Positions 31,759-61,176 of a stretch of DNA of 64,000 bases are shown piece by piece. Under the pieces are notes generated by a model. It searched no databases, was not told where the DNA came from, and was given only the letters and a program-made list of their open reading frames with translations. Position numbers and translations under genes: made by a program. The first letter of the stretch is position 1, and each line of letters opens with the position of its first letter. This DNA comes from Sphingorhabdus lacus (GTDB taxonomy: Bacteria; Pseudomonadota; Alphaproteobacteria; Sphingomonadales; Sphingomonadaceae): NCBI RefSeq assembly GCF_009768975.1, contig NZ_CP035733.1, positions 1,798,001 through 1,862,000 of the forward strand. Direction: 5' to 3'.

Positions 31759-32871
<1,113 letters not shown>

Positions 32872-40535: not shown

Positions 40536-40553
40536 CCATACAGTTCTGTACTG
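40536..40553. promoter_or_regulatory. TetR-type operator candidate T1
   Basis: CCATACAGTTCTGTACTG, with perfect core TACAG-TT-CTGTA, 50 bp from the ATG of the first CocE-like gene and about 147 bp before the divergent LamG-like gene. It is one of four near-identical sites (T1-T4; consensus CCATACAGTTSTGTATGG). Confidence 0.65.
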
Positions 40554-40699
40554 TAATGCCAAGCGCGATGAATTCGGGTATCGTCAATATCTCCGGGGGA
40601 GCAGATCCAGAGCCTCCCACTGGCGTCAAATCTCAAAGTCTCGGTGCAACGACCAAGCCACGCCCGCAAGTATTCACCGCATCCGAAGGAGTTTGTTGA

Positions 40700-41452
40700 G
40701 TGCACAGAAGTTTTCGACCAATCTCCTGCCTGATCGCCGGGACGGTTGCTGTCTCAGTTGCTGGCGCTGCGTCGGGCGGAACCAAGGCAGTTTTAGACGT
40801 CAGGCGCCTAACGTTGCAAAACGTCGGCGCTGAGAATACGGAGTATCGGGACCGCAGAGCCCTTAGACTCATCGTTTCTCCTGAAGCGGAAGCAGCTGAT
40901 ATCGACGCGACCTTCGCGGTGCTTCCCTATCCACCGATCAGAGATTTTGTAATTGAAGCGGATGTGGCGGGAATCCCCGTAGCCGCGGAAACCACCGCCA
41001 GAGGGTTTGTTGGTATTGCTTTCCACATCGCCGAAGATCGGAACAGTTTCGAAGCCATATACCTGAGGCCGACCAACGGCCGCGCAGACGATCAGGTGCG
41101 CCGGAATCGCGCCATCCAGTACATCTCCCATCCAGACTACCCTTGGCACAGGTTGCGGATTGAAGCTCCGGGGCAGTTTGAGTCCTATGTGGATCTCGAG
41201 CCGGGTCGATGGACTCGCATGAAGATCGTGGTCGTGGGTGCGCGCGCCAGCCTATTCGTCAACGACGCAAAGCAACCGAACCTGATCGTCAACAACCTCA
41301 AACTTGGCGAGCGTTCGGGGCGAGTTGGTCTGTGGGTCGGACCAGGTTCGATCGCTCACTTCTCAAACGTTGTTATCAAGCCGATTTCTGCGCTATCAAA
41401 GCCGCATGAGCTGACAAAAGACAGCGAGCTAACGTCTGCCTTCGTCCGTTAA
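40700..41452 (+). CDS. secreted LamG/DUF1080-like (concanavalin A-fold) protein
   Basis: A 250-residue protein with a signal peptide of about 24-26 residues and a single beta-sandwich domain. Typical strands are FVIEADVAGIPV, FVGIAFHIAEDRNSFEAIYLRPTNGR and WTRMKIVVVGARASLFVND, ending GRVGLWVGPGSIAHFSNVVIKP, which is the jelly-roll layout of LamG/DUF1080 domains that bind or process sugars and other ligands. GTG 40700 has AAGGAG eight bases upstream. It is divergent from the CocE operon and convergent with the sulfotransferase gene with an 8-bp gap. No catalytic residues can be assigned; a binding role in the periplasm is plausible. Confidence 0.65.
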   Translation: MHRSFRPISCLIAGTVAVSVAGAASGGTKAVLDVRRLTLQNVGAENTEYRDRRALRLIVSPEAEAADIDATFAVLPYPPIRDFVIEADVAGIPVAAETTARGFVGIAFHIAEDRNSFEAIYLRPTNGRADDQVRRNRAIQYISHPDYPWHRLRIEAPGQFESYVDLEPGRWTRMKIVVVGARASLFVNDAKQPNLIVNNLKLGERSGRVGLWVGPGSIAHFSNVVIKPISALSKPHELTKDSELTSAFVR

Positions 41453-41460
41453 ACGGGACA

Positions 41461-42831
41461 TCATTCTGTTGTGAGGCCTTCTGCCAGCATTGCCTTGCGC
41501 ATCGGCTCCAGATAGGGAGCAAAATCGTGCCATCCGCTCAACCCTCTCGTATGAATGGGCTCCCTGATCTGGGCCGCGCTGTGCGAGGTGTTCGCAGTTG
41601 CCCCCTTGTGCGGTGACAGGCAATCATCATGCCAGTCGAGGCCACAGGCAGCGACGAGTTCGCGGATGCTGGTTGTCGGATTGCGCACCAAATCATCATA
41701 GAAAACATGGTGAATCCTGCCGGGCAGTTCGCGGCTCCAGTGGTCCATCAGCATATGGAATGCAGCGATGTAGCGCCCAAGCTCAACCTGATCATAGGAA
41801 AAAGGATAGCCTTGTACGAACAGCGTCTTGAACATGCCCCAGCCCACCGCAAGTGGCGGCTTGTAGACATGTACGATGCGCGCACGTGGCAAAGCTTTGG
41901 CGATGAGCCCGATGTAAAGATAATTGAGCGGCAGTTTGTCGATAATATGCAGTGACGGGTTCCGGCCTGCCGATGCGAGCTCGTGATAGAACTCGCCCAA
42001 CATGACTGGATCCAACGTCTTGCTGAACGGGATCAAGGCATGTTTGCCGCCCCCCCGGAATCCACTCGCTTTTGCGCAATGCTCCAGCGCGCGCGCGAAG
42101 GCCGACATCTCTCCACCAGATACGACTTGGGGATGAGCTTCAAGAATGCGCTCTATCAGGGTCGTCCCCGAGCGTGGCAGGCCAAGTACAAAGATCGGCG
42201 CAGCACCGGAAAAGCCCTCGCCCATCGACGCCAAGGCGCAACTAGTAAAGGTGCTGCGAATGGCCGCTAGCGCCGCGAGATCATCGTCAATGTCATAATC
42301 CAGATGGCATCGCCGCAACTTGGTGGCTGCGTCCAAGGCAGCAAAGGCCTGGGCAACATGACCAAGGTCTTCCCGCTCTTTCGCAAGCGCATAAAGCAGC
42401 CGCATCCGATGCTGCCAAGCCGAGTGTTCACCGGCGAGTGCTGTCTCGATCTGCGCAACGTGATTGCGAACGCTTGTTTGGCGTCTGAGATGACTTCGAT
42501 TCAACCACGCTTCGCTATCTGCAGGGTCCACCGCTATGACAGCATCATAGTCCTTTTCGGCAGCTTCCAGCTCACCAAGAAAGCGAGCCGTCGCCGCGCG
42601 ATTGAAACGCACGCCGATTAAACCGGGTTCATGGCTCAGCGCCTGATCATAAAAGCTATTCGCCAGATTATAACCGCCAGCAGCCGATGCCAAATCACCT
42701 GCAGTCGCTGCTACCCGCGCGTCTGCTGCCAGGATCTCGAACGATTGCGTGAGGTAGGCGATGGCCAGATCGGGCCGTTCGTGGGCTAGGGCGCTGCGCG
42801 CCTGCTCCAGTACGGCCCGCTCCGCGCTCAC
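41461..42831 (-). CDS. TPR-containing sulfotransferase family protein
   Basis: A 456-residue protein: four to five TPR-like helix pairs in the first 200 residues, then a sulfotransferase domain with the 5'-phosphosulfate loop LPRSGTTLIERIL (218-230) and the core HIIDKLPLNYLYIGLI, and a 3'-phosphate-binding-type segment near RIVHVYKPP. It should transfer sulfate from PAPS to a hydroxyl or amine. The GTG start (42831) overlaps the TonB receptor stop in GTGA, so synthesis is coupled to the receptor. This receptor-sulfotransferase pairing recurs, to my recollection, in sphingomonads, with no established function; modification of the receptor or of its ligand are both possible. Confidence 0.82.
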   Translation of the reverse strand: MSAERAVLEQARSALAHERPDLAIAYLTQSFEILAADARVAATAGDLASAAGGYNLANSFYDQALSHEPGLIGVRFNRAATARFLGELEAAEKDYDAVIAVDPADSEAWLNRSHLRRQTSVRNHVAQIETALAGEHSAWQHRMRLLYALAKEREDLGHVAQAFAALDAATKLRRCHLDYDIDDDLAALAAIRSTFTSCALASMGEGFSGAAPIFVLGLPRSGTTLIERILEAHPQVVSGGEMSAFARALEHCAKASGFRGGGKHALIPFSKTLDPVMLGEFYHELASAGRNPSLHIIDKLPLNYLYIGLIAKALPRARIVHVYKPPLAVGWGMFKTLFVQGYPFSYDQVELGRYIAAFHMLMDHWSRELPGRIHHVFYDDLVRNPTTSIRELVAACGLDWHDDCLSPHKGATANTSHSAAQIREPIHTRGLSGWHDFAPYLEPMRKAMLAEGLTTE

Positions 42832-45299
42832 TTTCGTAACGTCAAGCGAATTCCCACCGTACGAGGTCGTGCGATATAATCGCCTCGATACAATGCCCGG
42901 ATGTTTGGCGGCGTGAGATTATTTCCCGCGGTTTTGGCAGAGATTCCATCAACGTCAAAAAGGTTCGTTGCAAATATTTGCATGCGTATCGCGGAATTCC
43001 AGTCATAAGCGATCGACATGTTCGTCATAGCAAAACCATCGAGTTTGGCAAATCCCGGCGAATTGGGGTCGAGGCTTGACAACACATCGCCGCGAAGGTT
43101 CACATCAGCGTGAATATCTATCGTCCGAACTCGATCACTGCCCAACGGAATTGCAACATCAATGGCCGCCCCGACTTGATGCCGGGCAGATCCTGGCAGT
43201 CGGGTGCCAACAGGAGCCGTAAAATTGCGCCCACCAAAGGCAATTGGACCAATGGCTTCGGTTGTCTTGGCATCGGTATAGGCGTAGGAAATCGATGCAG
43301 TGACCATCGAGCTCGGGCGCAACTGAGCCTCGAATTCTATTCCTTGCGATCTGGCACGGCTACCGTTGACCACAGTGGGAGTACCGGCCCGCGATCCAAT
43401 TTCGATCTGGATATCGCTCCAGTCAATGCGAAAAGCAGCGAGCGAATAGCTAACAGCACGATCTAACAGCTGCCCTTTGATACCGAGTTCATAGTTATTA
43501 GCGCTATCTGGACCATAGTTAAGGAAGGTACCTGGATCACATGCAGGACAAGACCGAGGCCCGATGGGATAGGCGTTGGCGCCGCCCGAGCGGAAGCCCT
43601 GGCTAAAGGTAAAATATGCCAACTGCTCGCCAAATTCGTAAGACGCATTTCCTTTAACAATAATCTTGGTGTCCGATCGCGAACCTGAACCTTGTGACGT
43701 ACCGTTTGCCAGATAGTTGGGATCGCTGGACGCACCATCACCGCCAAAAAACCCCAATGTGGGAAAAGTCTGAACTGTGCTCTGCCGGAATTTCTGATTA
43801 AATACACGAATCCCGCCCGTAAATGAAAGGGCTGGTGTCGCATGCCAAGAAAATTCACCGAAACCCGCCAGTTCCTCAAAACGTACTCGACGATCAAAAG
43901 TGAAAGAAGTGTCGGGTGGATTCAGCGAGCCAGGCCGAACCCCTCCGAAGTAAAGGACCACGTCATTGGCATAGGTATCAAGGAAAACACCACTTCCTGG
44001 CAATGTCGAATAGGCAGCAAGTCCTGGCACGGTAGAGAAAGCGAATGTGCTCTGTTTACGGTTCTGGTAATATCCGCCAATCACATATTCGAAGGTGTCA
44101 CTATCTTTCGAAACCAGGCGCAACTCCTGCACAAATGAACGATCCTTGACTGTGTCATAGTTTGTGGTCGAAGCGCGTGGGTAATTTCCATAATACTGGA
44201 TAAACGCGTTGGCGATCTGGGAATTATCGAACAGGTCGTCGGAACGGCTGCGGGAATAGGATGTCGCGGAAGTCAGTGTCGCAAAACCGAAATCGACTGT
44301 GCCAGTAAGTGATGCAAGATCGGTATCTGTATCGATAGGGCTCACCGGGATTAGCTGGCGGTTTTCATAACCGGAATCGCCCGTGCGGAAAGGAAAGGCG
44401 TTCGCCTTGGTATTCTGATGCAAATAGCTAGCCTCGATATCCACGGAGTCGGATGGTTGCCAGCGAAGCGCCGCGCGGCCAAACCAGATTTTTGCCCAGT
44501 CGATATCATCAATTGCACGGGTCACAGCAGGACTGTTGAGCGGATCGGCCGGATTGGCCAGCACGACTTGTGCATCCGGATTGAACCTTATGTCTTTATC
44601 ATAAACATAAGCATTGGTGGCATTTATAACCCCAGCCTGATATTCGTACCCTCCGTTCAAGCGCAAGGCCAGCGTGGATCCAACCGGAATGTTAAGCATG
44701 GCATCGGCATCATATCCTGCTTTGCCGGCATGCCGCGTTGTCGACGCAGCCGCATTAACTTCATAATCAAAGCTGCCGACGTCAGGGCGATTTCGGATCA
44801 AACGGATGGTTCCGCCTACCGATCCTGCACCGAATAATGTGCCCTGCGGTCCGCGCAGCACTTCGACGCGCGCAATGTCACTTAACTTCAGGTTCGCGAA
44901 GACGGGGATGTCGTCAATATAGGTTGATGTTGCCGAACTTCCCAACTTGGGAAACGAGGTTCCGCCTCCCCCGATGGCATCAGTGGACACCCCGCGGATG
45001 ATGAAATTGTTGTTCGAGCCGTTGGCACGCGGCCCATAATCAACCGCAATTAGCCCGGGTGTGCTGTTCCGCAATCCAGCAAGATCAGTGACATTGGCTT
45101 TTTCAAGCGACTCTCCCGATACAGCGCTGATATTATATGGGATTTCAAACACAGTCTCCTCACGCCGAGTGGCCGTAACGACGATTTCACCTGCTTGATT
45201 GGCGTCATTGTCGCTGGATTCCTGCGCTTGCACCAGTTGCGGATTTATCAATGCCATTATGCTTGCCGTTTGCAGCAAAATTGACAGTTTCAGCTTCAT
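42828..45299 (-). CDS. TonB-dependent outer-membrane receptor
   Basis: An 823-residue receptor with a 25-residue signal peptide ending LVQA, a TonB-box-like GEIVVTATRR, a plug domain containing TYIDDIPVF and VEVLRGPQGTLFGAGSVGGTIRLI, and a barrel ending in VGIRLTLRK. ATG 45299 has GAGGAGGGG four to five bases upstream. The C-terminus ends in RK rather than an aromatic residue, unusual for outer-membrane barrels, and the last codons overlap the sulfotransferase start (GTGA). It is divergent from the Rieske oxygenase gene and shares with it the T2 palindrome, 49 bp from this ATG. It likely imports the compound handled by the co-regulated hydrolases and demethylase. Confidence 0.88.
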   Translation of the reverse strand: MKLKLSILLQTASIMALINPQLVQAQESSDNDANQAGEIVVTATRREETVFEIPYNISAVSGESLEKANVTDLAGLRNSTPGLIAVDYGPRANGSNNNFIIRGVSTDAIGGGGTSFPKLGSSATSTYIDDIPVFANLKLSDIARVEVLRGPQGTLFGAGSVGGTIRLIRNRPDVGSFDYEVNAAASTTRHAGKAGYDADAMLNIPVGSTLALRLNGGYEYQAGVINATNAYVYDKDIRFNPDAQVVLANPADPLNSPAVTRAIDDIDWAKIWFGRAALRWQPSDSVDIEASYLHQNTKANAFPFRTGDSGYENRQLIPVSPIDTDTDLASLTGTVDFGFATLTSATSYSRSRSDDLFDNSQIANAFIQYYGNYPRASTTNYDTVKDRSFVQELRLVSKDSDTFEYVIGGYYQNRKQSTFAFSTVPGLAAYSTLPGSGVFLDTYANDVVLYFGGVRPGSLNPPDTSFTFDRRVRFEELAGFGEFSWHATPALSFTGGIRVFNQKFRQSTVQTFPTLGFFGGDGASSDPNYLANGTSQGSGSRSDTKIIVKGNASYEFGEQLAYFTFSQGFRSGGANAYPIGPRSCPACDPGTFLNYGPDSANNYELGIKGQLLDRAVSYSLAAFRIDWSDIQIEIGSRAGTPTVVNGSRARSQGIEFEAQLRPSSMVTASISYAYTDAKTTEAIGPIAFGGRNFTAPVGTRLPGSARHQVGAAIDVAIPLGSDRVRTIDIHADVNLRGDVLSSLDPNSPGFAKLDGFAMTNMSIAYDWNSAIRMQIFATNLFDVDGISAKTAGNNLTPPNIRALYRGDYIARPRTVGIRLTLRK

Positions 45300-45347
45300 C
45301 GAACCCCTCCTCATTAATCCAGACGGCGCACCGCTCTCGAATCAAAA

Positions 45348-45365
45348 CCATACAGAACTGTATTG
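45348..45365. promoter_or_regulatory. TetR-type operator candidate T2
   Basis: CCATACAGAACTGTATTG, perfect core ATACAG-AA-CTGTAT; the opposite strand reads CAATACAGTTCTGTATGG. It lies 49 bp from the TonB receptor ATG and 63 bp from the Rieske oxygenase ATG, so it could control both divergent genes. Confidence 0.7.
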
Positions 45366-45427
45366 AATTGTTGACCCAGTGGCAATATGGAATATGAAGA
45401 GTGTTCAGCTTGGATTCGTGAGAGGTA

Positions 45428-46585
45428 ATGATGAGCCAGTTTGTATCGTCCGCAATGAAGGCGTCCTTACCGTTTCGGTGCTATACAGATTCGGAATTTT
45501 TTGAACGCGAGCGCCAGGGTCTTTTCCATCAAGAATGGTTCTGCGCAGCTCGCGAAGAGGACGTAGCTACTCCTGGCACCGCAATCGTTATTCCCGTTCT
45601 AGGTGAAAGCATCATTGTATCTCGGCTGTCGGATGGCAGCTTGCGCGCGCATCAGAATATCTGTCGGCACCGCGGCGCAAAAATGTGTGGTGAGGACTCC
45701 AAATGGGGCGTTACACTTAACGGCGGGATTGATCGCGGCTTCATTCGCTGTCCCTATCACCAATGGACTTATGGGTTGGATGGTACATTGATCAATGCAC
45801 CGCATCTTACAAAATCCGACGATTTCAACGCGTCTGATTTTAGTTTGATAGCTGTTGGCATAGCAACGTGGGGCGGCTTTATATTTCTGAAACTGCGGCC
45901 GGATGAAGGGGACGAACTACCGCGAACGCTCGGAGTGTCCGACATTGGCCTAGCTCCAAAACGGCTTGGCAATTATCCGCTGGAGACGCTGCAGACAGCT
46001 CATTCTATCAAATATGAGGTAGCTGCTAACTGGAAAGTCATCGCCGAAAATTATAACGAATGCTACCATTGCAGCGGTGTTCACCCCGAACTTTGCGAAA
46101 TTGTGCCGGTTTTCCGTAAGAAGGGCGGACTCGAACTTGACTGGGAAAATGGTGTCCCGCATCGCGAAGGAGCATGGACTTATACATTTAGTGGAACAAC
46201 CACGCGAAAACCTTTCGCAGGTCTCGACGAATATGAACTTGTGCGGCACAAGGGCGAACTTGTTTATCCAAACATGATGCTGTCCATGAGCGCCGAACAT
46301 GGTGCCGCATTCATACTTTGGCCCATTTCTGCGGACAAGACGATCGTCGAATGTCGCTTTCTTTTTGCCCCTGACGAAATCGCGAGTCCCGAATTCGATG
46401 GGTCAGACGCGATAGACTTTTGGGATATAACAAACCGGCAGGATTGGGCCGTTTGCGAGCGTGTTCAGCAAGGAATGAGTGTCGGACGAATTGAACACGG
46501 CTGGTACGCTCCAATGGAAGATGATAGCCTCGATATTCGCAAATATCTCGGCGAGAGGCTGGGGCACGATGTAATAAATCAATAG
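45428..46585 (+). CDS. Rieske non-heme iron oxygenase, glycine-betaine monooxygenase (GbcA)-like
   Basis: A 385-residue oxygenase component. The Rieske 2Fe-2S ligands are C79-x-H81 and C108-x2-H111 (CRHRG, CPYHQW); the mononuclear iron site has H214 and H219 in ENYNECYHCSGVHP and a C-terminal Asp around 340 (FWDITNRQDW). The WKVIAENYNECYHC pattern is that of enzymes that hydroxylate N-methyl groups of quaternary amines (glycine betaine, stachydrine, carnitine), releasing formaldehyde. No ferredoxin-reductase partner is encoded in the window. ATG 45428 or 45431 follow GAGAGG. It is divergent from the TonB receptor, and its stop overlaps the convergent tetR-like gene by 7 bp. The exact substrate is not known. 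Confidence 0.8.
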   Translation: MMSQFVSSAMKASLPFRCYTDSEFFERERQGLFHQEWFCAAREEDVATPGTAIVIPVLGESIIVSRLSDGSLRAHQNICRHRGAKMCGEDSKWGVTLNGGIDRGFIRCPYHQWTYGLDGTLINAPHLTKSDDFNASDFSLIAVGIATWGGFIFLKLRPDEGDELPRTLGVSDIGLAPKRLGNYPLETLQTAHSIKYEVAANWKVIAENYNECYHCSGVHPELCEIVPVFRKKGGLELDWENGVPHREGAWTYTFSGTTTRKPFAGLDEYELVRHKGELVYPNMMLSMSAEHGAAFILWPISADKTIVECRFLFAPDEIASPEFDGSDAIDFWDITNRQDWAVCERVQQGMSVGRIEHGWYAPMEDDSLDIRKYLGERLGHDVINQ

Positions 46586-47214
46586 AGTAAAACCTTGTCG
46601 TAAATGGTTCCCAACCTCTCTCTTTCAGCACTGCTTTCACGAATACCGAGCGTGTAATAGCCTACTTGGTGATAATAGGTTATCCGTCCGCGAACTTCCG
46701 CTTCGTCCTCATCAAAACCATATGACTTGAACATCTCAGCGAAGGCAGCAACTCTTATATCATCAATTCGATGAACCGCTTCTGCGACCAAAGAATCTGT
46801 TCGTGCCCAGTCACGAATGGCGGAGTCGAAGGCGGGATCAAAGTCGGTTTCATCGATCCACAAGCGACCGACAGTCTTGTCAAAATCACTTCTTTCTCCC
46901 CTAGCTCCGGCTGCTTTGATCGCTGCCAGCATTGGTTCGGTGTTGGATGCTTCCCACAAATGAAGGAGCGCATCCAAAAGAGAGTCACGATCCTCAAAAT
47001 GCCAATAAAAACTCCCGCGTGTCACGTTGATACGCTTTGCAAGCAAATCGACCTTCACTCCATCGATTCCGCTTTCTACCAACATGGTTCGGGCCGCGCT
47101 TATCCAGTCTTCGCGACTCAATCGCGAAGATTTACGATATGTCTTTCCTGAGGATGGCCGTTGTGGCCTGCCGTTGCTCGGCATATTATTTTTCTTAACA
47201 GCTTCACGCCCCAT
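46579..47214 (-). CDS. TetR/AcrR-family transcriptional regulator
   Basis: A 211-residue repressor-type protein. The N-terminal helix-turn-helix is seen in WISAARTMLVESGIDGVKVDLL followed by AKRINVTRGSFYWHFEDRDSLL; the C-terminal ligand domain is not diagnostic. ATG 47214 is used, with only a weak GGGG upstream; ATG 47184 would remove a basic N-terminal tail. The gene lies between the Rieske oxygenase (convergent) and purU (divergent). A palindrome of the T family is in the purU promoter 230 bp away and three more control neighbouring operons, so I infer that it binds these sites and releases them in the presence of the cluster's substrate or a demethylated product. Confidence 0.85.
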   Translation of the reverse strand: MGREAVKKNNMPSNGRPQRPSSGKTYRKSSRLSREDWISAARTMLVESGIDGVKVDLLAKRINVTRGSFYWHFEDRDSLLDALLHLWEASNTEPMLAAIKAAGARGERSDFDKTVGRLWIDETDFDPAFDSAIRDWARTDSLVAEAVHRIDDIRVAAFAEMFKSYGFDEDEAEVRGRITYYHQVGYYTLGIRESSAERERLGTIYDKVLLY

Positions 47215-47444
47215 CAATCTGCGCCCCGCAAAACATCAGCTGAGACGATGCCATGAAGCGCCCGCAGCCCACCGAAACGGCGAAACTTGGATTTGAGACC
47301 CCCAATAGTCGTAGCACTGCAAATGTGCGCCTCCCCCAGCCAGCTATCCCCTTCAGTTTGGCTTAGAACCCAAATGCGATTCGTCCAACGAGGGTGGTGT
47401 TCGCCAATAGGCTGCGTTTCATCGAAGTTCAACGATTGCTATTA

Positions 47445-47462
47445 CCATACAGTTGTGTATGG
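47445..47462. promoter_or_regulatory. TetR-type operator candidate T3
   Basis: CCATACAGTTGTGTATGG: 7-bp perfect arms CCATACA and TGTATGG around GTTG. It ends 51 bp before the purU ATG and lies in the region divergent to the tetR-like gene, the classic position for an autoregulated local repressor. Confidence 0.72.
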
Positions 47463-47512
47463 TTTGCCTAGGCAACGAAACGCCGCCTAAAACCTTGTGC
47501 CGGGAACACAAA

Positions 47513-48364
47513 ATGAAGAACAATATTATTCTCACTATTCGCTGCGCTGATAGACCTGGATTGGTGGCGTCTGTCACAAGTTTTCTGGCGGAGCGAAACT
47601 TCACCATTATCGAATCGCACCAGCATCAGGATGCGGACGATTTCTTTATGCGTATTGTGTTCGCTCCAATATGCGACACGTCCCTGAATTTGGCCCAAAT
47701 TGAATCGTCCTTTAAGTCGATTTCGTCGCAATTTGGTATGACCGCTGCATTTACACATACCGCCAAGCGACCCAAAATTTTGATAATGGTCTCAAAGTTT
47801 GGTCACTGCTTGCACGATCTGCTGCATCGTTGGCGCGCGGGGCAGTTGGCTGTCGACATCCCTGCAGTTGTCTCCAACCATGACGACATGCGTTCGTTTA
47901 CCGAATGGAATGGCATTCCTTATCATCACTTGCCGATCACACCGCAAAACAAATTAGAACAGGAGGAAGTTCTGCTGAAACTAGCGAACGACTACGATAT
48001 CGATTTGGTCGTTTTGGCGAGGTACATGCAGGTCCTATCACCTGGTCTTTGTGCAGCTTTATCTGAGCGATGCATAAACATTCATCACAGCTTTCTCCCA
48101 AGTTTCAAGGGTGCAAAACCTTATCATCAAGCTCATGCACGCGGAGTAAAATTGATAGGGGCGACGGCGCACTATGTTACTACCGATTTGGATGAAGGCC
48201 CGATTATCGAACAGGATACACGAAGGGTCAGCCATTCTCGAACGGCTGAACAACTCGTCCAAATTGGTCAAGAGGTCGAAGCTAGCGTACTTTCACGAGC
48301 GGTTCGCTGGCATATCGAAAAGCGTGTCATCCTAAATGGCGCTCGAACGATCATATTCGACTAA
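47513..48364 (+). CDS. purU: formyltetrahydrofolate deformylase
   Basis: A 283-residue enzyme hydrolysing 10-formyl-THF to formate and THF. An N-terminal ACT domain (about 5-80) precedes a PurN-like formyltransferase fold with N189, H191 (INIHHSFLP) and D227 (TTDLDEGP), the H to D spacing of 36 being that of E. coli PurN. ATG 47513 is chosen because it begins the ACT domain normally; upstream the frame runs through the T3 operator. PurU copies beside sarcosine oxidase or betaine demethylation genes keep free THF available when C1 units flood in from N-methyl groups. That context, plus a shared operator, indicates a catabolic rather than a purine-related role. Confidence 0.92.
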   Translation: MKNNIILTIRCADRPGLVASVTSFLAERNFTIIESHQHQDADDFFMRIVFAPICDTSLNLAQIESSFKSISSQFGMTAAFTHTAKRPKILIMVSKFGHCLHDLLHRWRAGQLAVDIPAVVSNHDDMRSFTEWNGIPYHHLPITPQNKLEQEEVLLKLANDYDIDLVVLARYMQVLSPGLCAALSERCINIHHSFLPSFKGAKPYHQAHARGVKLIGATAHYVTTDLDEGPIIEQDTRRVSHSRTAEQLVQIGQEVEASVLSRAVRWHIEKRVILNGARTIIFD

Positions 48365-48446
48365 AAACGCGAAGTAGGCGAAAGTTACGTGACCTTTGGT
48401 ATCGACACAAGATGGCCATGGGCAGTTTGGCGTTTCTAGCTCGGTA

Positions 48447-51170: not shown

Positions 51171-51196
51171 TCCACACTTGTATGGCCATGAAATGA

Positions 51197-51229
51197 CAGA
51201 GCCGGGCTGATAATGCTAGCCCGGCTCTG
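51197..51229. terminator. strong hairpin between the third TonB receptor and the spermidine-synthase-like gene
   Basis: Perfect 12-bp arms CAGAGCCGGGCT (51197-51208) and AGCCCGGCTCTG (51218-51229) with a 9-base loop, 12 bp after the receptor stop codon. On the minus strand it is followed by TCATTTCATGG, only a weak T-tract. Probably a terminator or attenuating stem for receptor transcripts. Confidence 0.6.
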
Positions 51230-51241
51230 CAATTCATTAGG

Positions 51242-53563: not shown

Positions 53564-53578
53564 GATTTCCTCCCTTAT

Positions 53579-53586
53579 GGTATACC
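53579..53586. promoter_or_regulatory. GGTATACC operator-like palindrome, proximal site of the third TonB receptor
   Basis: GGTATACC in TTATGGTATACCTATA, 16 bp before the ATG at 53563 and next to its ribosome binding site. It pairs with the copy at 53641. Confidence 0.55.
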
Positions 53587-53640
53587 TATATAGTGGATTA
53601 TGGCGTACACCCACAATTGTCAAGCCGATAACACCGATTT

Positions 53641-53648
53641 GGTATACC
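53641..53648. promoter_or_regulatory. GGTATACC operator-like palindrome, distal site of the third TonB receptor
   Basis: GGTATACC in TTTGGTATACCATAA, exactly 62 bp from the proximal copy, about six helical turns, so both sites face the same side of the DNA. Confidence 0.55.
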
Positions 53649-53713
53649 ATAATTGTGGGATAGGGTCAGCGCCGCACGCGGCGGCCCATGTCTTGCAACC
53701 ACTGGTCCGCCAG

Positions 53714-54175
53714 TCAAAATTCCAGAATGGTCTGATATGAGCGTGGAACCAGAACAGTGGACCGCCCGCCGATACAAAATGCTACAACACTGGTCTGGCG
53801 GATCATAAGGAGCTTGGCTTGGCCATTTTGCAACTCCACACCGGTCCAGGACACCAGAGAATCGGGATCGACATTCTCGAATGCCTCAAAACTGTCCGAT
53901 ACGTCAGAGGCGATGGCAGCGGCACCGAAAAGTAGCTTATTCAGCGCCTCATAACGTGCCGAAACGTCAGCTGTGGATCCAATAAGCAGCCAATCGCAAA
54001 GACTTTTGCGGATTGCTAGGTAACCGTTGTCGTTACTATAGAGCTGCATAAATTCAGGAAGCGGATGATCTAAGATCGCCTCGATAGCTTGCTTCAAATC
54101 GGCGTGCCGATCTGTATCAACTGTTAACTGAATGATACGACGATCAGATGTCAATGCACGTCCCCTCGCGATCAT
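53714..54175 (-). CDS. soxG: sarcosine oxidase gamma subunit-like
   Basis: About 153 residues, somewhat short for the family. Similarity is weak but the layout is that of SoxG: a GcvT-like fragment with QLYSNDNGYLAIRKSLCDWLLIG, VSARYEALNKLLFG and a closing RSYQTILEF. The main support is position: last gene of the soxB-D-A-G chain. ATG 54175 overlaps the soxA stop by 32 bp and has a poor ribosome binding site; a TTG at 54151 has GAGGGGAC upstream and would shorten it by eight residues. In the heterotetramer the gamma subunit contacts the THF-binding part of the alpha subunit and has no catalytic residues of its own. Confidence 0.72.
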   Translation of the reverse strand: MIARGRALTSDRRIIQLTVDTDRHADLKQAIEAILDHPLPEFMQLYSNDNGYLAIRKSLCDWLLIGSTADVSARYEALNKLLFGAAAIASDVSDSFEAFENVDPDSLVSWTGVELQNGQAKLLMIRQTSVVAFCIGGRSTVLVPRSYQTILEF

Positions 54176-56843
54176 AAGAGACAGTTTCACTGATTTCTGC
54201 TCTCCACTTAGCCCCCAACGAAACAACCTCGATTACTTCCCCTAGGCGTCGCTGCCCTTGCTCAATCAGCGCCAAAGCAATTCCACGACCGAGTGTGGAA
54301 CTGTAAGCACTACTAGTAACGAAGCCTTCGCTACGACCATTCGTCGCCCGCACATGACCACCGACTGGTAAGGTCGTGCCGCAAAGTGAAGTCAGACCAA
54401 CCAGCTGCTTTCGATTGGGAGAAGTTGACGATCGGCGCATCAGAGCGCGCCGCCCTAGAAAGTCGCTTGTTTTCTTCGCAATAGCGCCGCCGAAACCGAT
54501 GTCCGCCGGCTGCGTCTCGCTGTCGGTATCTGTACCTACATGAATATAACCCTTCTCTATGCGCAATATCTCCAGCGCTTCTATGCCATATGGTGCAATA
54601 TCAAAGCGCTTTCCAGCTTGTAGTAAAACCTCCCCCATCCGATCCGCCTGCCCCGCGGGTAGCTGGATCTCATAGCTCAGCTCGCCGGAAAAACTTACAC
54701 GTTGAATGCGTACCGCAGTGTCACACAGCATGCCCTCGCGAATGGACAAGTGAGGAAATCCTTCACGTGAAAGATCAAAATCGGGTTGCAACTCTTCTAG
54801 AACATCTCGCGCTTTCGGTCCCGCGACAGTCCAGACTGCAAATTGCTCGGTCACGTCCTGAACGACTACATCCATAGGCCATTCGCACTGGAGCAAGTCC
54901 TCCAGCAATTGCATCATTTTCTGGGCGAACGCACTGGATGGGCTGAGCAAAAAATTCCCATTTCCAAGTCGGGCATAAACACCATCGTCGACGATCGTAC
55001 CGTTTTCGTTGAGAACCAAACCGTAGCGAATGCGTCCCGGTTTCAGTGTTGAAGGCGTTCCAACATAAACGCGATCCAAAAAGGCGCCTGCATCTGGACC
55101 AGCCACGAGAATTTTACCTAATGGAGAACCGTCCAACAATCCGACGTTTTTACGCACTGACATTGCTTCGCGTTGAGCGGCAGAATGTAAATCCTCGTTC
55201 TCTCTAAGATAGGCGGCGGGACGTTCCCAGCCGAAGTCTTCAAAAAGTGCTCCTTGGCGCTTATGCCATTCGTGCGCGGGTAGAAATCGGCGAGGACGAT
55301 ACATTTCGCCGCGCATATCTGCACCAAGCAAGCCGAAGGCCGTCGGTACGAAAGGAGGACGAACCTTGCTCGCATTGAGCGAGCCCTGTTCGGCGCCAAT
55401 AGTATCGGCAAGAATCATAGCACCTGAAACGGAGCCCAGCTTGCCCTGATCAACACCCATCCCTAGCACCGTGTAGCGCTTGAGATGTTCAACACTGCGG
55501 TAATTTTCGTGAACGGCAAGCTTGATGTCACCAACGGTCACGTCAGTTTGGAAGTCGACAAACTTGGACTTATCATCTCCTCCCGGGACATACCAAATTG
55601 GATCGGCCGCAACGGGCTCAGGACCAGCCCATTCAACGTGAGGAAGTACCCCGACAGGCTGGAAACTTTGGCTGCGTTCATCAAAAATCGTTTGCCCACC
55701 AGCCATGGTCCAGAGTTGAGAGACAGGATTCCAGCCGCCCGAAACTCCGACAAAGTCGCATGCAATTCTATTCAGTCCATCGGGATGGCAAACCGTAACG
55801 CCTTGCACTCGTCCTCGCCCATGTGCTGTCTGCACATGCGACCCAACAAACAGACTAATCCCACACGCTGCAGCTTTACGAACAAGATCAGGGGACACAG
55901 ATGTTCTTGGATCGACAATGGCTTGCACTTTTACGCCACTTATGGCGACTTCGATCGCGGTTCGCCAACCCAGATCATTGTTGACGAAAAAAATCCCTGA
56001 ATTCCCCGGCGATGCCGCATAGTCCAGAAGATAGGTTTTGATTGCACCAGCGAGCATCACTCCCGGCAAGTCATTGTTTGCAAAAGCAATACTACGCTCT
56101 TGTTTGCCTGTTGCCAGAACAATCCGTTCGGCGCGAATGCGCAGCAGTATTCGATCATCTTGGGCTGCAAGGACCAAGCCATGATCCCAAATACCCAATG
56201 CCGTGGTCTTTTCATAAACGGACACATCCGGCAGCTTGGGCGTTCCGCTATGCAAATCTACGAGAATGACTGACTTCCCGTTCTTGGAAGCGTTTTTCGC
56301 TGCAGCAAGCCCTTTGAAACCGGCACCGATTACCAGTAAATCGCAATTCACATACCGCGCGGCATAATCGCGCGCGTCAGGGATCGCCGGCACCTTGCCC
56401 AGTCCTGCTGCATGCCTGATCAGCCACTCGAACCAATGCCAATTTGGCCAAATGAACGTTTTGTAGTAGAAACCAGCCGAGAACAGACCTCGAAGTCTGT
56501 TGTTCAAACTAGCGATATCCCATTTTAAAGAGGGCCAAGCGTTGACACTGTCAACAACGAGCCCTTCCTCAAGATCGATCATTGTTGCTTGCACATTGGG
56601 AATCGACGAATTGCCTCGTACAAGCTGCACCAGTGCGTTCGTTTCTTCGCAACCCGCTCCGATTATCCCTCGGGGACGATGCAGTTTGAAACTTCTTCCG
56701 ACGAGTTGAACTCCATTGGCTAGCAGTGCTGAGGCCAATGTATCTCCGGAAAAGCCTTGGTACTTCCTGCCGTTGAACAAAAAACCTATAGGTTTTCGTC
56801 GATCAATTCGGTCGCCATTTTGAGGAAGTCTATATCCGGTCAC
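54144..56843 (-). CDS. soxA: sarcosine oxidase alpha subunit-like
   Basis: An 899-residue subunit, slightly shorter than the usual 960-1000. It opens with a 2Fe-2S-ferredoxin-like segment (FNGRKYQGFSGDTLASALLANG, with SFKLHRPRGIIGAGCEETNA), then an NAD-binding two-dinucleotide-fold region with GAGFKG (173-178), and from about 530 a GcvT/aminomethyltransferase domain that receives the methylene group on THF (FDIAPYGIEALEILRIEKG). GTG 56843 has GGGAG upstream and overlaps the soxD stop in GTGA. The dinucleotide motif GAGFKG differs from the common GxGPAG. It acts with SoxB, D and G in the cytoplasm to oxidise sarcosine or a related N-methyl amine to amine, H2O2 and 5,10-methylene-THF. Confidence 0.88.
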   Translation of the reverse strand: MTGYRLPQNGDRIDRRKPIGFLFNGRKYQGFSGDTLASALLANGVQLVGRSFKLHRPRGIIGAGCEETNALVQLVRGNSSIPNVQATMIDLEEGLVVDSVNAWPSLKWDIASLNNRLRGLFSAGFYYKTFIWPNWHWFEWLIRHAAGLGKVPAIPDARDYAARYVNCDLLVIGAGFKGLAAAKNASKNGKSVILVDLHSGTPKLPDVSVYEKTTALGIWDHGLVLAAQDDRILLRIRAERIVLATGKQERSIAFANNDLPGVMLAGAIKTYLLDYAASPGNSGIFFVNNDLGWRTAIEVAISGVKVQAIVDPRTSVSPDLVRKAAACGISLFVGSHVQTAHGRGRVQGVTVCHPDGLNRIACDFVGVSGGWNPVSQLWTMAGGQTIFDERSQSFQPVGVLPHVEWAGPEPVAADPIWYVPGGDDKSKFVDFQTDVTVGDIKLAVHENYRSVEHLKRYTVLGMGVDQGKLGSVSGAMILADTIGAEQGSLNASKVRPPFVPTAFGLLGADMRGEMYRPRRFLPAHEWHKRQGALFEDFGWERPAAYLRENEDLHSAAQREAMSVRKNVGLLDGSPLGKILVAGPDAGAFLDRVYVGTPSTLKPGRIRYGLVLNENGTIVDDGVYARLGNGNFLLSPSSAFAQKMMQLLEDLLQCEWPMDVVVQDVTEQFAVWTVAGPKARDVLEELQPDFDLSREGFPHLSIREGMLCDTAVRIQRVSFSGELSYEIQLPAGQADRMGEVLLQAGKRFDIAPYGIEALEILRIEKGYIHVGTDTDSETQPADIGFGGAIAKKTSDFLGRRALMRRSSTSPNRKQLVGLTSLCGTTLPVGGHVRATNGRSEGFVTSSAYSSTLGRGIALALIEQGQRRLGEVIEVVSLGAKWRAEISETVSYDREGTCIDI

Positions 56844-57103
56844 GGTCGAACTTCTCCCATCGCATACACCTCCAACACCTCGTGTGAAACTGTATGTCGA
56901 ATAATGTTGAACCAAAGCCCGCACCCGTGTGCGTGGACCCAGCGCTCTGCATGCTCACCTTTGGTGTTTGCGCGCATGAAAAGGTAATGCTCCCACGCTT
57001 GATCCTCACAGGTCAAATCAGGTCTTTCGACATGAGCCTCACCACCATAAACAAATTCATGTTCGTTTCTCAGGCCACAATTTGGACAAGCAATTTGCAT
57101 CAT
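56840..57103 (-). CDS. soxD: sarcosine oxidase delta subunit-like
   Basis: An 87-residue zinc-binding subunit: CPNCG at 6-10, the body WEHYLFMRANTKGEHAERWVHAHGCGLWF and a closing VSHEVLEVY are those of SoxD, with Cys6, Cys9 and the His/Cys of HAHGC as zinc ligands. ATG 57103 lies one base after the soxB stop (TGAAATG), and its own stop overlaps the soxA start, so it is translated as part of the chain. It clamps the alpha and beta subunits in the heterotetramer. Its clear conservation is the best single proof that this operon encodes a tetrameric sarcosine-oxidase-type enzyme. Confidence 0.93.
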   Translation of the reverse strand: MMQIACPNCGLRNEHEFVYGGEAHVERPDLTCEDQAWEHYLFMRANTKGEHAERWVHAHGCGLWFNIIRHTVSHEVLEVYAMGEVRP

Positions 57104-57104
57104 T

Positions 57105-58358
57105 TCAATGTTCAATCCCAGCTGCCGCCGCCTCATCGATGAGTGCTCCGTCTCTAAACCGTTGCAACACGAACGCTTTGGCGAGCGGGTGTGGCTCGTC
57201 TTTTGCTATCAGATGAGCAAACGCCTCGCCTCCGGCGGGAATCGCCTTGAACCCTCCACCGCCCCACCCTACGTTCAGGTATATCCCCTGTACCGGACTG
57301 CGATCGATGATCGGCGAGCTGTCGGCGGTGTAATCCACAATTCCGGACCATTGGCGTAGAAGGCGCAGACTGCTGAAAGTAGGGACGAGCTGAATGATGC
57401 CGGCGAGCACCTTTTCCATAATGGCAGCACTACCCCGCTGGGCAAAAGACGGGAACGGATCGATCCCACCCCCGCATACGATTCCACCCTTGTCCGATTG
57501 ACTGCAATAGCTCCCGATCACAGCGGAGCCGATCACGGTATTTAGGACCGGCTTGACTGGTTCGGAGACGAAGGCCTGGAGCCCATAACTTGTGACCGGC
57601 AATCTGAAGCCGGCCATCTGTGCTACCACCGATGAATGACCTGCCGTAGCAATCCCCACCTTTCGCGCGCCTATGAAACCCCTGCACGTTTCCACACCCA
57701 ACAGGCTACCGTTTGGGTCTCTGCGGAACCCGGTGACTTCAGTGTTTTGCAGGATGTCGACACCCAAGGCATCGGCGGCCCTTGCGTAGCCCCAAGCCAC
57801 TGCATCATGACGGACGGTGCCTCCGCGTTTTTGGCGCATGGCCCCATAGATTGGAAACCTGGCATTGGGATCAGCATTCAGGATAGGGCAGAATTTGAAC
57901 ACCTCGTCTCGGCCCAAAAGTTCTGCATCGATCCCGTTCAGGCGCATTGCGTTCACAATTCGGCGTTGGAAATCGACCTCATGGCGACTGTGCGCGAGAT
58001 TGAGAATCCCCCGGGCAGAATACATGATGTTGAAATTTAGTTCTTTCGAAAGGCCGGCATAGAGGTGGAGGGAATGGTCGTAGAAATCAGCGCTTTCCTT
58101 GTAGAAATAATCCGATCGCACAATAGTAGTATTGCGACCGGTATTGCCTCCTCCGAGCCACCCTTTATCGAGCACCGCAATTCTTCCAAGCTTGTAGTAT
58201 TTAGCTAGATGATAAGCTGTTGCGAGGCCATGGCCGCCAGCCCCAATGATAATCACATCATAATTGTTGGCCGGTTCAGGCGAGCGCCATACCGGATCCC
58301 AATCCGTATTTCCATTGAGCCAATTCCTTAGTAGCGCGAACGCCGAGTATCGGCTCAT
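57105..58358 (-). CDS. soxB: sarcosine oxidase beta subunit
   Basis: A 417-residue flavoprotein subunit with the family's usual length and start (RYSAFALLRNWLNG). The FAD motif GAGGHGLA is at 39-46, GGGNTGRNTTIVRSDY follows at 69-84, and H184 in RHDAVAWGYARAAD is the likely covalent FMN site. The C-terminal region has VGWGGGGFKAIPAGG. It carries the amine-oxidation site, removing hydrogen from the N-methyl group of sarcosine-like substrates. ATG 58358 overlaps the stop of the phytoene-desaturase-like gene (ATGA), so five genes are strung together by overlaps: flavoprotein, soxB, soxD, soxA, soxG. Sarcosine itself is the default substrate, but a different N-methyl amino acid is possible. Confidence 0.92.
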   Translation of the reverse strand: MSRYSAFALLRNWLNGNTDWDPVWRSPEPANNYDVIIIGAGGHGLATAYHLAKYYKLGRIAVLDKGWLGGGNTGRNTTIVRSDYFYKESADFYDHSLHLYAGLSKELNFNIMYSARGILNLAHSRHEVDFQRRIVNAMRLNGIDAELLGRDEVFKFCPILNADPNARFPIYGAMRQKRGGTVRHDAVAWGYARAADALGVDILQNTEVTGFRRDPNGSLLGVETCRGFIGARKVGIATAGHSSVVAQMAGFRLPVTSYGLQAFVSEPVKPVLNTVIGSAVIGSYCSQSDKGGIVCGGGIDPFPSFAQRGSAAIMEKVLAGIIQLVPTFSSLRLLRQWSGIVDYTADSSPIIDRSPVQGIYLNVGWGGGGFKAIPAGGEAFAHLIAKDEPHPLAKAFVLQRFRDGALIDEAAAAGIEH

Positions 58359-59944
58359 CGGCGTAAATCCTTTAGGATGACTTGCGCTGCATTCCGTCCG
58401 GGGGCACCTGTTACACCCCCACCAGGGTGTGTCCCAGCACCACAAAGATACAAGCCAGCCAAAGGCGTGCGATAGCCCGACCAATCCGGATGAGGACGCA
58501 TGAAGAACAGCTGGCCGAGATTGAGATCACCATGGAAAATATTGCCCTCGGTTAGCCCGTAGGTGCGTTCCAGATCTAGCGGCGTGATGACCGTGCGTGC
58601 GATAACGCTGGCCGGCACATTAGGCGCAACCTGACCGATCTGTTTCACAACCTGATCACCCAGCGCTTCGCGCCGTGTATCCCAATCACCCTCACGCAAA
58701 CTATATGGCACATACTGGACGAAGCAGGTCAGCATAGTTCGGTCTGCTGGACACAGTGTCGGATCCACCATGCTGGGAACGACGCAGTCGATCCAGAGTT
58801 CATCTGCGACCTCACCGAATTTCGAAGCGTCATAGCAGCGTTGCATAGCGGCCATGCCACCCATGACGGAGAACACCGCGCGCTCCTGCGGCGTGGCGTC
58901 AGGCGACATACCGGTAACCGCGGGCGGCTCGCAAAGTACCATGTTCACCTTAGCTGACGGACCGGCCATCTTGATGGCGGCAATGTCCGAACGGAATTCC
59001 GGATCGAGACAGTCAGAACTGACTAGACCGAGAAACGTTCGCTTCGGATCCGCATTCGACACTACCGTCTTTGATTGGAAGGTACGGCCATCGACCAGCT
59101 CGACACCGCAGGCGCGCCCGTCCCGGATAAGGATCTGCGCCACCTCGGCATTCGTTATGATTTCAGCTCCAAAACCCTGAGCAGCGTTAGCTAGCGCGTC
59201 GCTGACCGAACCCATTCCACCAATCACATGTCCGCTAAAGCCCTGTATGCTTTGATCACCTCCGCCCAGCAGATGGAAAAGTAAACCGAGGGTGGAACCA
59301 GGGTCGTACGGACCACCATGCTTTCCGTAGACATTGTTCGCCAGAAAGAGTCGATGCGTTTCCTCGCTTTCGAAATGACGTTCGAGAAACTCGGCAAGGG
59401 AACCGGTTAGAAACTTGGTCATCGACGCAACTTCATCGCGCGAAATGCCCCAGAACTGTCGGACTATCGACGCCAATTCTCCTACCCGATCCACCAAACT
59501 TCCGCTGAGCGTTGGCGGAGGCTTCAGGAAGAAGGGTTGAAGATAACGGGCTAGCGCCTTGAGCCGATGCTCAACGACTACAAAATTCTCCGCATCTTTT
59601 TGACTGTAGGGCCTTAGACTTGCTGCTGTCCGGAGCGGATCGGACCAAAGCGTCACCAGCCCCTCATTGGAAGTTGGCACGTTGAGCGCTGGATCACATG
59701 GAACCATTTTAAGCCCATGATCGGCTAAGCCCAACTCCTTGACTACAGCAGGTGTAAGCATGCTGGCGATGTAGGAACAAAACGATACGCGGCATTCAGG
59801 CATCACCTCTTCGGTCACCGCAGCACCTCCGACAATAGCGCGCCGTTCGAGAACGAGAACGTCGGCCCCACCACTTGCAAGATAGGCAGCTGCCGTCAGC
59901 CCGTTGTGACCGCCCCCAACAACAATTGCATCGTAAGTTTTCAT
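58355..59944 (-). CDS. phytoene-desaturase-like FAD-dependent oxidoreductase
   Basis: A 529-residue flavoprotein. The N-terminal dinucleotide motif is VVGGGHNGLTAAAYLASGG with VLERRAIVGGAAVTEE, and the C-terminal FAD-binding motif is LYLCGAGTHPGGGVTGAPGRNAA. This is the CrtI-like branch (pyridine nucleotide-disulphide oxidoreductase domain 2/NAD(P)/FAD type) that includes carotenoid and saturated amine or ketone oxidoreductases. It is not in a carotenoid cluster. ATG 59944 follows AACAGG, and the T4 palindrome is 45 bp upstream. Coupled by ATGA overlap to soxB, it probably oxidises the same substrate series, for example an N-methyl or side-chain C-N or C-C bond before or after SoxBDAG. Confidence 0.82.
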   Translation of the reverse strand: MKTYDAIVVGGGHNGLTAAAYLASGGADVLVLERRAIVGGAAVTEEVMPECRVSFCSYIASMLTPAVVKELGLADHGLKMVPCDPALNVPTSNEGLVTLWSDPLRTAASLRPYSQKDAENFVVVEHRLKALARYLQPFFLKPPPTLSGSLVDRVGELASIVRQFWGISRDEVASMTKFLTGSLAEFLERHFESEETHRLFLANNVYGKHGGPYDPGSTLGLLFHLLGGGDQSIQGFSGHVIGGMGSVSDALANAAQGFGAEIITNAEVAQILIRDGRACGVELVDGRTFQSKTVVSNADPKRTFLGLVSSDCLDPEFRSDIAAIKMAGPSAKVNMVLCEPPAVTGMSPDATPQERAVFSVMGGMAAMQRCYDASKFGEVADELWIDCVVPSMVDPTLCPADRTMLTCFVQYVPYSLREGDWDTRREALGDQVVKQIGQVAPNVPASVIARTVITPLDLERTYGLTEGNIFHGDLNLGQLFFMRPHPDWSGYRTPLAGLYLCGAGTHPGGGVTGAPGRNAAQVILKDLRR

Positions 59945-59988
59945 AACCTGTTGCAACAACTCTCTAGACTCTGAACCGAAGCTTGTTA

Positions 59989-60006
59989 CCATACACTAGT
60001 GTTTGG
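59989..60006. promoter_or_regulatory. TetR-type operator candidate T4
   Basis: CCATACACTAGTGTTTGG, perfect core ACACTAGTGT. It lies 45 bp from the flavoprotein ATG (minus strand) and 19 bp before the MFS start (plus strand), so binding should affect both divergent genes. Confidence 0.65.
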
Positions 60007-60024: not shown

Positions 60025-61176
60025 TTGTTTAGGCGCTACACCACAATTTCGGGGATGCTCGCAGGATCCCTGATCGCCGAGATTGGCGGCTATACGATGC
60101 CTTTTGTGGTTGGCGGGATAGTCAAGGCATATGCTATACCTGAAGGCTGGATCGGTTTCATTATTGCCGGACAGATTGCCTGTGCATCGCTGGTATCGAT
60201 AGGATTGGCACCGTATTTGTTGCGCCTTGACCGCCGAAAGCTTGCTTTCGCAGGCGCCTTGTTAGTGTTGTTGGGCTATGCAGGCTCGGCATTGAGCCAT
60301 AGCGCAGATTTCCTGGTTATGTCGCGTTTGATCGGCGGAATTGGTGAAGGTATTCTATATGCATCTATTGCTGCGGTGGCTGCGGAAACGGAGGATGCGG
60401 ACCGGACCTTTGCGCTGATATGGGTTGCTGTCGTTGCATTGGCAGTGATACTTTTCGTCACGCTTCCTCTCCTGCCCGATTGGGCTGGTCCACGCGGGAT
60501 ATTCGTTGCATTAGGCGTTGTTGTTCTTGCTCTAATTCCCATGCTTAAAAACATCCCGCCTCGGGCCGGAATTGTTGATGCGCCGACGAACCATAAGACT
60601 TCCTCTATAAGCACACACGCAGTTACGCTTGGCTTGGTTGCGGCCCTCCTCGCGATTTTGGCGAACGGCTATTACTACTTCATCGAAGGCATTGCCCAAT
60701 CAATAGGCGTGACCGAAGTTCAAGCGGGCTATGCGATGGCGATTTCGGCCGCCTGTGCGCTAGCCGGCCCTGCATTGGCGCACAGACTTGGCACTCGGTT
60801 CGGGCGGACACCCCCGCTCGCGCTAGGTTATCTGATCACCGGAGTTGGTGCCTATGCGGTCACCCACGCCGGCGACCAGACCATTCTTACAATTGCCATG
60901 TGTGTTTCCGGTACTGCTTATGTCTTCACATTACCTTATCTTCTGGGACTCGCCGCTGCATCGGGTGGCGCTCCTCTTGCAGCCGTAGCGCGCGGCGGCC
61001 AAGGCATAGGGAGTGCATCAGCACCGGCTATATCGGGGTTGATACTGCTAAATGGTGGTACGTACCAGCAGATCGGAGCCTTAGCACTGGGCTGCGCGAT
61101 TTTCGCTCTCCTGCCCCTGATATACTTCGGTCGCACTAGTGCGTTGAATTCCGATAGAGCTCGAGACGTCAAATGA
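60025..61176 (+). CDS. MFS transporter
   Basis: A 383-residue protein with about 12 hydrophobic segments and a short loop 2-3 (LLRLDRRKLAFAG) that replaces the usual GxxxDRxGRR signature. TTG 60025 is preceded by GGGAGGG at seven bases; an ATG at 60055 falls inside the first helix and has no binding site. The gene is divergent from the flavoprotein-sox operon across a 80-bp region containing T4. It may import the N-methylated substrate or export a product. The family cannot be subdivided from the sequence alone. Confidence 0.78.
   Translation: MFRRYTTISGMLAGSLIAEIGGYTMPFVVGGIVKAYAIPEGWIGFIIAGQIACASLVSIGLAPYLLRLDRRKLAFAGALLVLLGYAGSALSHSADFLVMSRLIGGIGEGILYASIAAVAAETEDADRTFALIWVAVVALAVILFVTLPLLPDWAGPRGIFVALGVVVLALIPMLKNIPPRAGIVDAPTNHKTSSISTHAVTLGLVAALLAILANGYYYFIEGIAQSIGVTEVQAGYAMAISAACALAGPALAHRLGTRFGRTPPLALGYLITGVGAYAVTHAGDQTILTIAMCVSGTAYVFTLPYLLGLAAASGGAPLAAVARGGQGIGSASAPAISGLILLNGGTYQQIGALALGCAIFALLPLIYFGRTSALNSDRARDVK

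Follow-up and report, generated by a model that had tools for sequence, protein, structure and literature searches.

The question raised by this locus is which regulator acts at a set of nearly identical palindromes lying before several of its genes, and what the genes so controlled would serve for. The locus is contained in a stretch of 64,000 nucleotides of Sphingorhabdus lacus, called here the window, which corresponds to C1:1798001-1862000 of the single contig of 3,458,643 bases (3.46-Mb genome). We propose, as the reading that has a good likelihood of being correct, that the TetR protein encoded at 46579-47214 keeps a compact local regulon in check through five palindromes, T1-T5, the N-demethylation genes being induced upon its release. 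The sites are present, they are clustered and conserved, and they are associated with this TetR rather than in general with sox genes, which encode N-demethylases of the sarcosine oxidase type. The binding of T1-T5 by the TetR protein is strongly supported by these patterns in the DNA, though not proven.

The four palindromes in the window, to which no strand is assigned, lie where the original prediction had placed them and have the same letters. T1 (40536..40553) is located 49 bp before a CocE-like gene; T2 (45348..45365) lies between the divergently oriented genes of a TonB receptor (48 bp for the start at 45299, 33 bp for a start at 45314) and a Rieske oxygenase (62 bp); T3 (47445..47462) separates tetR (230 bp) from purU (50 bp), which are likewise divergent; and T4 (59989..60006) is in the divergent gap between a CrtO-like flavoprotein gene (44 bp) and an MFS gene (48 bp, for the ATG at 60055, a start taken by reading of the frame). 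T1, T2 and T3 are kept in three relatives. It is noted that the divergent setting claimed before for T2 and T4 is confirmed, and that the distance of 45-51 bp to a start codon claimed with it holds, within counting, for the four named genes (44 to 50 bp) and not for T5 (181 bp). The four sites are far above chance. With CCATACAGTTCTGTATGG at three or fewer mismatches, the window gives 5 matches, where 100 shuffles give 0.04 on average, the matches being T1 once and T2 and T3 on both strands, with T4 differing at 4 places. In leave-one-out scans, where a symmetric matrix built from the other three sites was run over the whole window, each of T1-T4 ranks at the top with 19.8 to 25.3 bits, while the runner-up places have 12.7 to 13.3 bits (that of T4 overlaps T1, the first independent place having 11.6 bits).

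In the genome, places were found by mismatch pattern and then scored with the matrix, the reversed pattern serving as control. At two or fewer mismatches CCATACANNNNTGTATGG occurs at 9 places versus 4 for the control. These nine are T1-T4, the new site T5 and four others of 15.8, 15.7, 12.5 and less than 9 bits, so that the places with two mismatches beyond T1-T5 equal the control in number, and T1-T5 themselves score 20.7 to 27.0 bits. At three or fewer mismatches the counts are 54 versus 50; exactly three mismatches are present at 45 places, and the best among the 41 listed has 16.4 bits. No genomic hits of equal score were found, the extra places that were scored reaching at most 16.4 bits versus 20.7-27.0 bits. 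T5, CCAAACACTTCTGTATGT, is found at C1:1865787-1865804, 3.8 kb beyond the window end, between the end of a cupin gene, which we take to be that of a gentisate dioxygenase, and an Ldi-domain (linalool-dehydratase-type) gene. Since the latter begins 181 bp from T5, the constant distance fails there. The five strong sites found in the genome all fall within about 27 kb. Chance palindromes are rejected on the basis of the shuffles, the leave-one-out ranks and these genome-wide counts.

A search of 298 family genomes with the TetR protein at an E value of 1e-15 or better gave matches in 31 (own genome included) and none in the 5 congeneric genomes also sampled. Because of the lack of a match in these congeners and the lower G+C content (0.50-0.55 from 40 to 60 kb versus 0.57-0.60 in the first 32 kb of the window), the locus is probably accessory. 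In G042, a genome of another genus, the locus is present, and each site precedes the gene that it precedes here. In the fetched stretches of Novosphingobium sp. ERN07 and MD-1 the gene order around T2 and T3 is the same, and T1 is found where expected, the CocE-like gene there being cut off by the end of the stretch. All five sites are found in these three genomes, so that among these close relatives keeping the genes no loss of sites is seen. In alignments that include 90 bp of flank on each side (three genomes for T5, four for every other site), the sites have 81/90 identical columns versus 587/930 in the flanks. The contrast is clear for T3 (15/18 versus 97/188), for T4 (18/18 in four genomes versus 123/180) and for T5 (15/18 versus 82/194). 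As the flanks of T1 are nearly as conserved as T1 itself (163/181 identical), T1 adds little, and it is T3, T4 and T5 that stand out.

The wider pairing of site and regulator was followed with a profile of 19 TetR relatives, which gave the named loci (the best 80 of 572), forming 48 clusters at 70% identity. For the site counts the Novosphingobium cluster was left out, giving 47 loci, with a threshold of 15 bits and a distance of at most 600 bp from tetR. A site near tetR is present in 23 of these 47 non-redundant loci, while 1000 column-permuted matrices give 0.2 on average; one permutation also reached 23, which is the same matrix with two equal columns swapped, and the next best gave 10. 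The half-site ATACA is kept exactly in 35 of the 46 half-sites of the sites found. Among the clade loci L013-L030 (G042 ortholog included), a site of at least 15 bits within about 1.5 kb is present in 11/18, and nothing above 11 bits in 7/18; some genomes of L013-L041 are also among the 80 named loci. A weaker palindrome, AGATACAGTACTGTATTT or -TTC, lies about 1.1 kb before tetR in several loci of Mesorhizobium and Kaistia, L104, L106, L111 and L117 among them.

The comparison with sox genes points in the same direction. A soxB search of the 298 genomes gave 68 places in 48 genomes, and 30 places were compared; the own and G042 soxB were left out, as soxB there is inside the operon, leaving 28. 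When this TetR is within 1.5 kb, 6 of 7 soxB genes carry an upstream site, of 17.0 to 20.7 bits, while for the 17 soxB genes without this TetR within 15 kb the highest upstream score is 4.9 bits; two of the 17 are in one-contig genomes with a TetR match far off (G038, G127). Four soxB genes with a clade TetR 1.4 to 14 kb off score 11.3, 17.8, 14.6 and -1.3 bits. When sox is counted as present if the fetched DNA (some contigs being short) contains soxB or soxA with at least 35% identity, the 48 clusters divide into 15 with sox and site, 8 with sox only, 9 with the site only and 16 with neither. Since 9 of the 25 clusters without sox in the fetched DNA still carry the site, the site follows the TetR gene. 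Co-conservation of sites and tetR is found (23/47 loci; 6/7 versus 0/17 soxB).

The TetR protein (46579..47214, minus strand), the proposed binder of T1-T5, has the TetR_N helix-turn-helix at its N-terminus (PF00440, 45.6 bits, cut-off 24). Its predicted model is all-helical, with ten helices and a mean predicted local distance difference test score of 83, as expected for a TetR fold with its helical, ligand-binding C-terminal domain, and is best matched by QacR, EthR and BioQ at E values of about 2e-4 to 4e-4; searches of solved structures by structure and by sequence gave general TetR matches only, with no ligand clue. Among the 15 TetR_N genes in the genome, one is located between 1798 and 1880 kb. 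The claim that it is the only local repressor-type gene therefore stands for TetR_N genes; other regulator families were not systematically searched. A MalT/LuxR-like regulator is encoded at 21128-23857.

Several observations weigh against our proposal and must be set beside this evidence. At the same threshold and distance, 24 of the 47 non-redundant TetR loci have no site, and 8 of the 23 sox-bearing clusters have none. The seventh soxB with this TetR within 1.5 kb, L158 in the distant relative G264, has no detected site, that genome keeping tetR, soxB, soxA and purU; neither has L153, with a clade TetR 13 kb away, and on contig C34 of G011 (outside the 30 places), with tetR and soxB about 1.1 kb apart, nothing scores above 11 bits. 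Moreover, the 17 sox genes without this TetR nearby are at the same time the more divergent ones, by which the comparison is partly confounded. Among the more distant TetR loci L031-L041, 3/11 (L037, L039, L040) have strong similar palindromes, and the motif is therefore not exclusive to this TetR clade. Outside the five sites, further places with at most two mismatches are found in ERN07 (5, control 2), MD-1 (2, control 1) and G042 (1, control 1), i.e., a few extra targets or background matches are present. As T3 is 230 bp from tetR, autoregulation of tetR is doubtful here, and a promoter scan of T2, the sole site scanned, gave one weak match, which overlaps T2. Note also that in L037, L039 and L040, where the TetR is 31-34% identical, there are two ATACA-N4-TGTAT palindromes each, about 45 bp apart. 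ERN07 and MD-1 have a one-mismatch place in common outside the five sites (L140, L148), and two extra places common to both could be further targets.

As regards the genes, T1 is before that of a CocE/NonD (S15-type) hydrolase (38345..40486, minus strand; TIGR00976, 220 bits, cut-off 66.3), followed by a second CocE/S15-type hydrolase gene of likely the same operon (36169..38388, minus; Pfam Peptidase_S15 and PepX_C). T2 is before the TonB-dependent receptor gene (42828..45299, minus; PF00593, PF07715), whose 3' end is overlapped by the gene, likely of the same operon, of a TPR-sulfotransferase protein (41461..42831, minus; PF13469). A possible second target of T2 is the Rieske oxygenase gene (45428..46585, plus; PF00848, PF00355), of which the nearest NCBIfam, GbcA, is the glycine betaine monooxygenase equivalog, reached with 176.2 of 670 bits only. 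The target of T3 is purU, the gene of formyltetrahydrofolate deformylase (47513..48364, plus; TIGR00655, 335.6 bits, above the cut-off of 285.95). That of T4 is the gene of a CrtO/phytoene-desaturase-like flavoprotein (58355..59944, minus; PF01593), which with 267 of 1000 bits falls short of the beta-carotene ketolase CrtO equivalog, and a possible second one is the MFS transporter gene (60055..61176, plus; PF07690). Behind T5, at L010:1315-3605, are the Ldi-domain gene and the gene of a similar-sized protein without family matches, both kept in G042.

Behind the flavoprotein gene, on the minus strand, are the genes of a sarcosine-oxidase-type N-demethylase: soxB for the beta subunit (57105..58484; TIGR01373, 648 bits, cut-off 529; 1vrq_B, 439 bits), soxD for the delta subunit (56840..57136; TIGR01374, 115.8 bits, 0.7 below the cut-off of 116.5), soxA for the alpha subunit (54144..56924; Fer2_4, SO_alpha_A3 and folate-binding GCV_T domains, the last, PF01571, recognised with 212.8 bits) and a probable soxG for the gamma subunit (53714..54226; assigned by position only, with no family match, a 42% identical relative being beside the same genes in G042). 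Compared with heterotetrameric sarcosine oxidase (1vrq, 2gag), soxB aligns nearly over the full length and soxA in four pieces, the latter scoring 959 bits, below the curated 1164; the histidine that carries flavin mononucleotide is kept in the printed alignment. The soxBDAG-type N-demethylase is apparently complete. Because the sox, TonB and spermidine-synthase-domain genes are co-directional behind the CrtO-like gene, T4 may drive all of them. The spermidine-synthase-domain protein (48447-51170), of 907 amino acids with the domain in its second half, is encoded between a TonB receptor gene and purU and is kept in three relatives. Two more soxB paralogs are located elsewhere in the genome, at 471 and 488 kb, and no place with two or fewer mismatches is found near them.

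From these genes we infer the following course of binding, repression, induction and pathway. A TetR dimer would bind the 18-bp palindrome CMATACA-N4-TGTATKG at five places, controlling the CocE-like hydrolases, the TonB receptor with the divergent Rieske oxygenase, purU, the CrtO-like flavoprotein with soxBDAG and the divergent MFS transporter, and, beyond the window end, the Ldi-like pair. In the presence of the substrate or a product, the TetR protein would be released and the genes for uptake, hydrolysis and oxidative N-demethylation would be expressed. The sox enzyme would then transfer the methyl groups to folate, with PurU returning formyl-folate to free folate. It is established chemistry that sox-type enzymes release methyl as methylene-tetrahydrofolate and that PurU converts formyl-folate to folate; with the folate-binding domain on soxA, the methyl groups probably leave as methylene-tetrahydrofolate here too. 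Since the targets include a soxBDAG-type N-demethylase and purU, the substrate is likely N-methylated, an assignment resting on homology of sox, purU and the Rieske oxygenase and on an MTTB gene in one relative. The gene sets of two relatives support this N-methyl chemistry theme. In the gammaproteobacterial locus L060, from a metagenome-assembled genome of Cellvibrionales, tetR is found with genes for soxB, soxA, a CrtO-like protein and an MFS transporter, and both soxB and the CrtO-like gene are preceded by sites. In L118, with the same TetR type, sites are before the gene of an OYE-type flavoprotein and that of an MTTB-family methyltransferase, the latter scoring under the cut-off of the trimethylamine equivalog.

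Genes beside sites in relatives were hand-picked for annotation, as the basis of a hypothesis and not of a statistic. The hydrolases among them are CocE (window, L076), M19 dipeptidase (L076), S10 (L084), DUF885 (L067), a beta-lactamase-fold protein (L065), an alpha/beta hydrolase (L092) and an amidohydrolase (L133) whose nearest model is Xaa-Pro dipeptidase, below the cut-off; the others are MFS and TonB (L083), TonB (L089), MFS (L133), Rieske and PhyH (L075), and a D-amino-acid-dehydrogenase-like protein (L123). As a weak hypothesis, the peptidase-like targets here and in relatives point to N-methylated peptides or amides. It is a tentative and rather doubtful extension that a widespread programme for the breakdown of N-methylated peptides or other tertiary amides is under the control of the TetR clade, with TonB import, Xaa-Pro-type cleavage of imide-type bonds and sox demethylation. 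In such a programme S15/CocE (window) and the Xaa-Pro-dipeptidase-like, M19 and S10 proteins (L133, L076, L084) might be the hydrolases, and the sox enzyme might be adapted to N-methyl amino acids with residues larger than glycine. A homarine-type (N-methylglutamate) pathway is not claimed, as the literature search gave nothing and the sole hint is an astD-like aldehyde dehydrogenase gene (61423-62865). In MD-1 and ERN07 (L181, L182) a PF07364 gene, which we take to be MlrC-type, is located on the contig that carries T1, at a distance of about 58 kb from it. Since PF07364 has no match in the window genome or in G042, the regulon does not depend on this gene, and a microcystin link is not adopted. 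The two strains are reported to be microcystin degraders (PMC8705652, PMC7082461).

The nearest rival to our proposal, which we judge unlikely, is that the TetR protein controls the sites while the regulon serves another function, such as aromatic, terpenoid or peptide catabolism, with sox demethylation as a side step. The CocE-like hydrolases, the Ldi-domain gene and the TonB receptors among the targets would fit it, as would the cupin gene and a 3-hydroxybenzoate-6-monooxygenase-like gene (below cut-off) next door and the 25/48 TetR clusters without sox in the fetched DNA. It is opposed by soxB or soxA in 23/48 clusters, by purU, which is preceded by a separate site in the window and stands behind sox in several operons, and by MTTB in L118.

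In both alpha- and gammaproteobacteria the palindrome recurs next to this TetR clade amid differing neighbours, and it was not found before the 17 sox genes without this TetR nearby. This makes it very improbable that the palindromes are bound by a different regulator, with the TetR gene as a mere neighbour, even though the genome-wide regulator count covered TetR_N genes only. The palindromes, being inverted repeats, might also be thought of as RNA hairpins or chance repeats and not operators. They are only 18 bp long, no terminator-like pattern is found around T2 (the sole place scanned), they are not spread over the genome, and T3-T5 are conserved islands in divergent flanks, so that this idea can hardly be credited.

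GbdR and SouR are AraC-type activators, i.e., of a regulator class other than TetR. They control sarcosine demethylation in Pseudomonas aeruginosa (PMC8864220), and the present protein would likewise control a demethylase of the sarcosine oxidase type. The same paper describes the TetR-family control of creatine/creatinine use by AmtR in Corynebacterium glutamicum (PMC8864220). In comparison by operator and role, AmtR is likewise a TetR-family repressor over genes leading to sarcosine, but it is a central nitrogen regulator with the operator CTAT-N6-ATAG (PMC8864220), whereas the present TetR is local with the candidate operator ATACA-N4-TGTAT. T1-T5 depart from ATACA-N4-TGTAT slightly at most and do not fit the AmtR operator. 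In SoxR of Bacillus thuringiensis there is dedicated regulation of a sox locus, as proposed here, but dependent on sigma-54 (PMC4941409). EdcR of Caenibius tardaugens is, as proposed for the present protein, a sphingomonad TetR repressor acting at several promoters of one catabolic cluster; it differs in the estradiol/steroid pathway served and in its operator, TnnCnnTACnAnTnGTAnnGnnA, of other spacing (PMC8700777). Local regulons in which a TetR protein acts at several operators are well known, EdcR being an example. In the literature search, which took in few subscription papers and no bioRxiv preprints, no description of the present switch or of another TetR regulator of soxBDAG was found.

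With the proposed pairing, a candidate operator and regulator are provided for the third sox-type system of a genome with two other soxB genes. The compound releasing the TetR protein is probably the substrate or its product, which would give a handle on the substrate. Moreover, the TetR-site pairing in alpha- and gammaproteobacteria could assign unannotated N-demethylation loci from sequence, and a biosensor for N-methylated compounds could be built on the pair.

Finally, we note two genes elsewhere in the window. At 31759-32886 the formaldehyde-detoxifying S-(hydroxymethyl)glutathione dehydrogenase is encoded (608 bits, cut-off 544), with no strong site upstream, the best place in the matrix scan of the window having 9.0 bits there. 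At 27943-29286 an M24-family-like protein is encoded, for which the nearest model is the dimethylsulfoniopropionate lyase DddP (402 of 600 bits), making it a DddP relative rather than a proven DddP.

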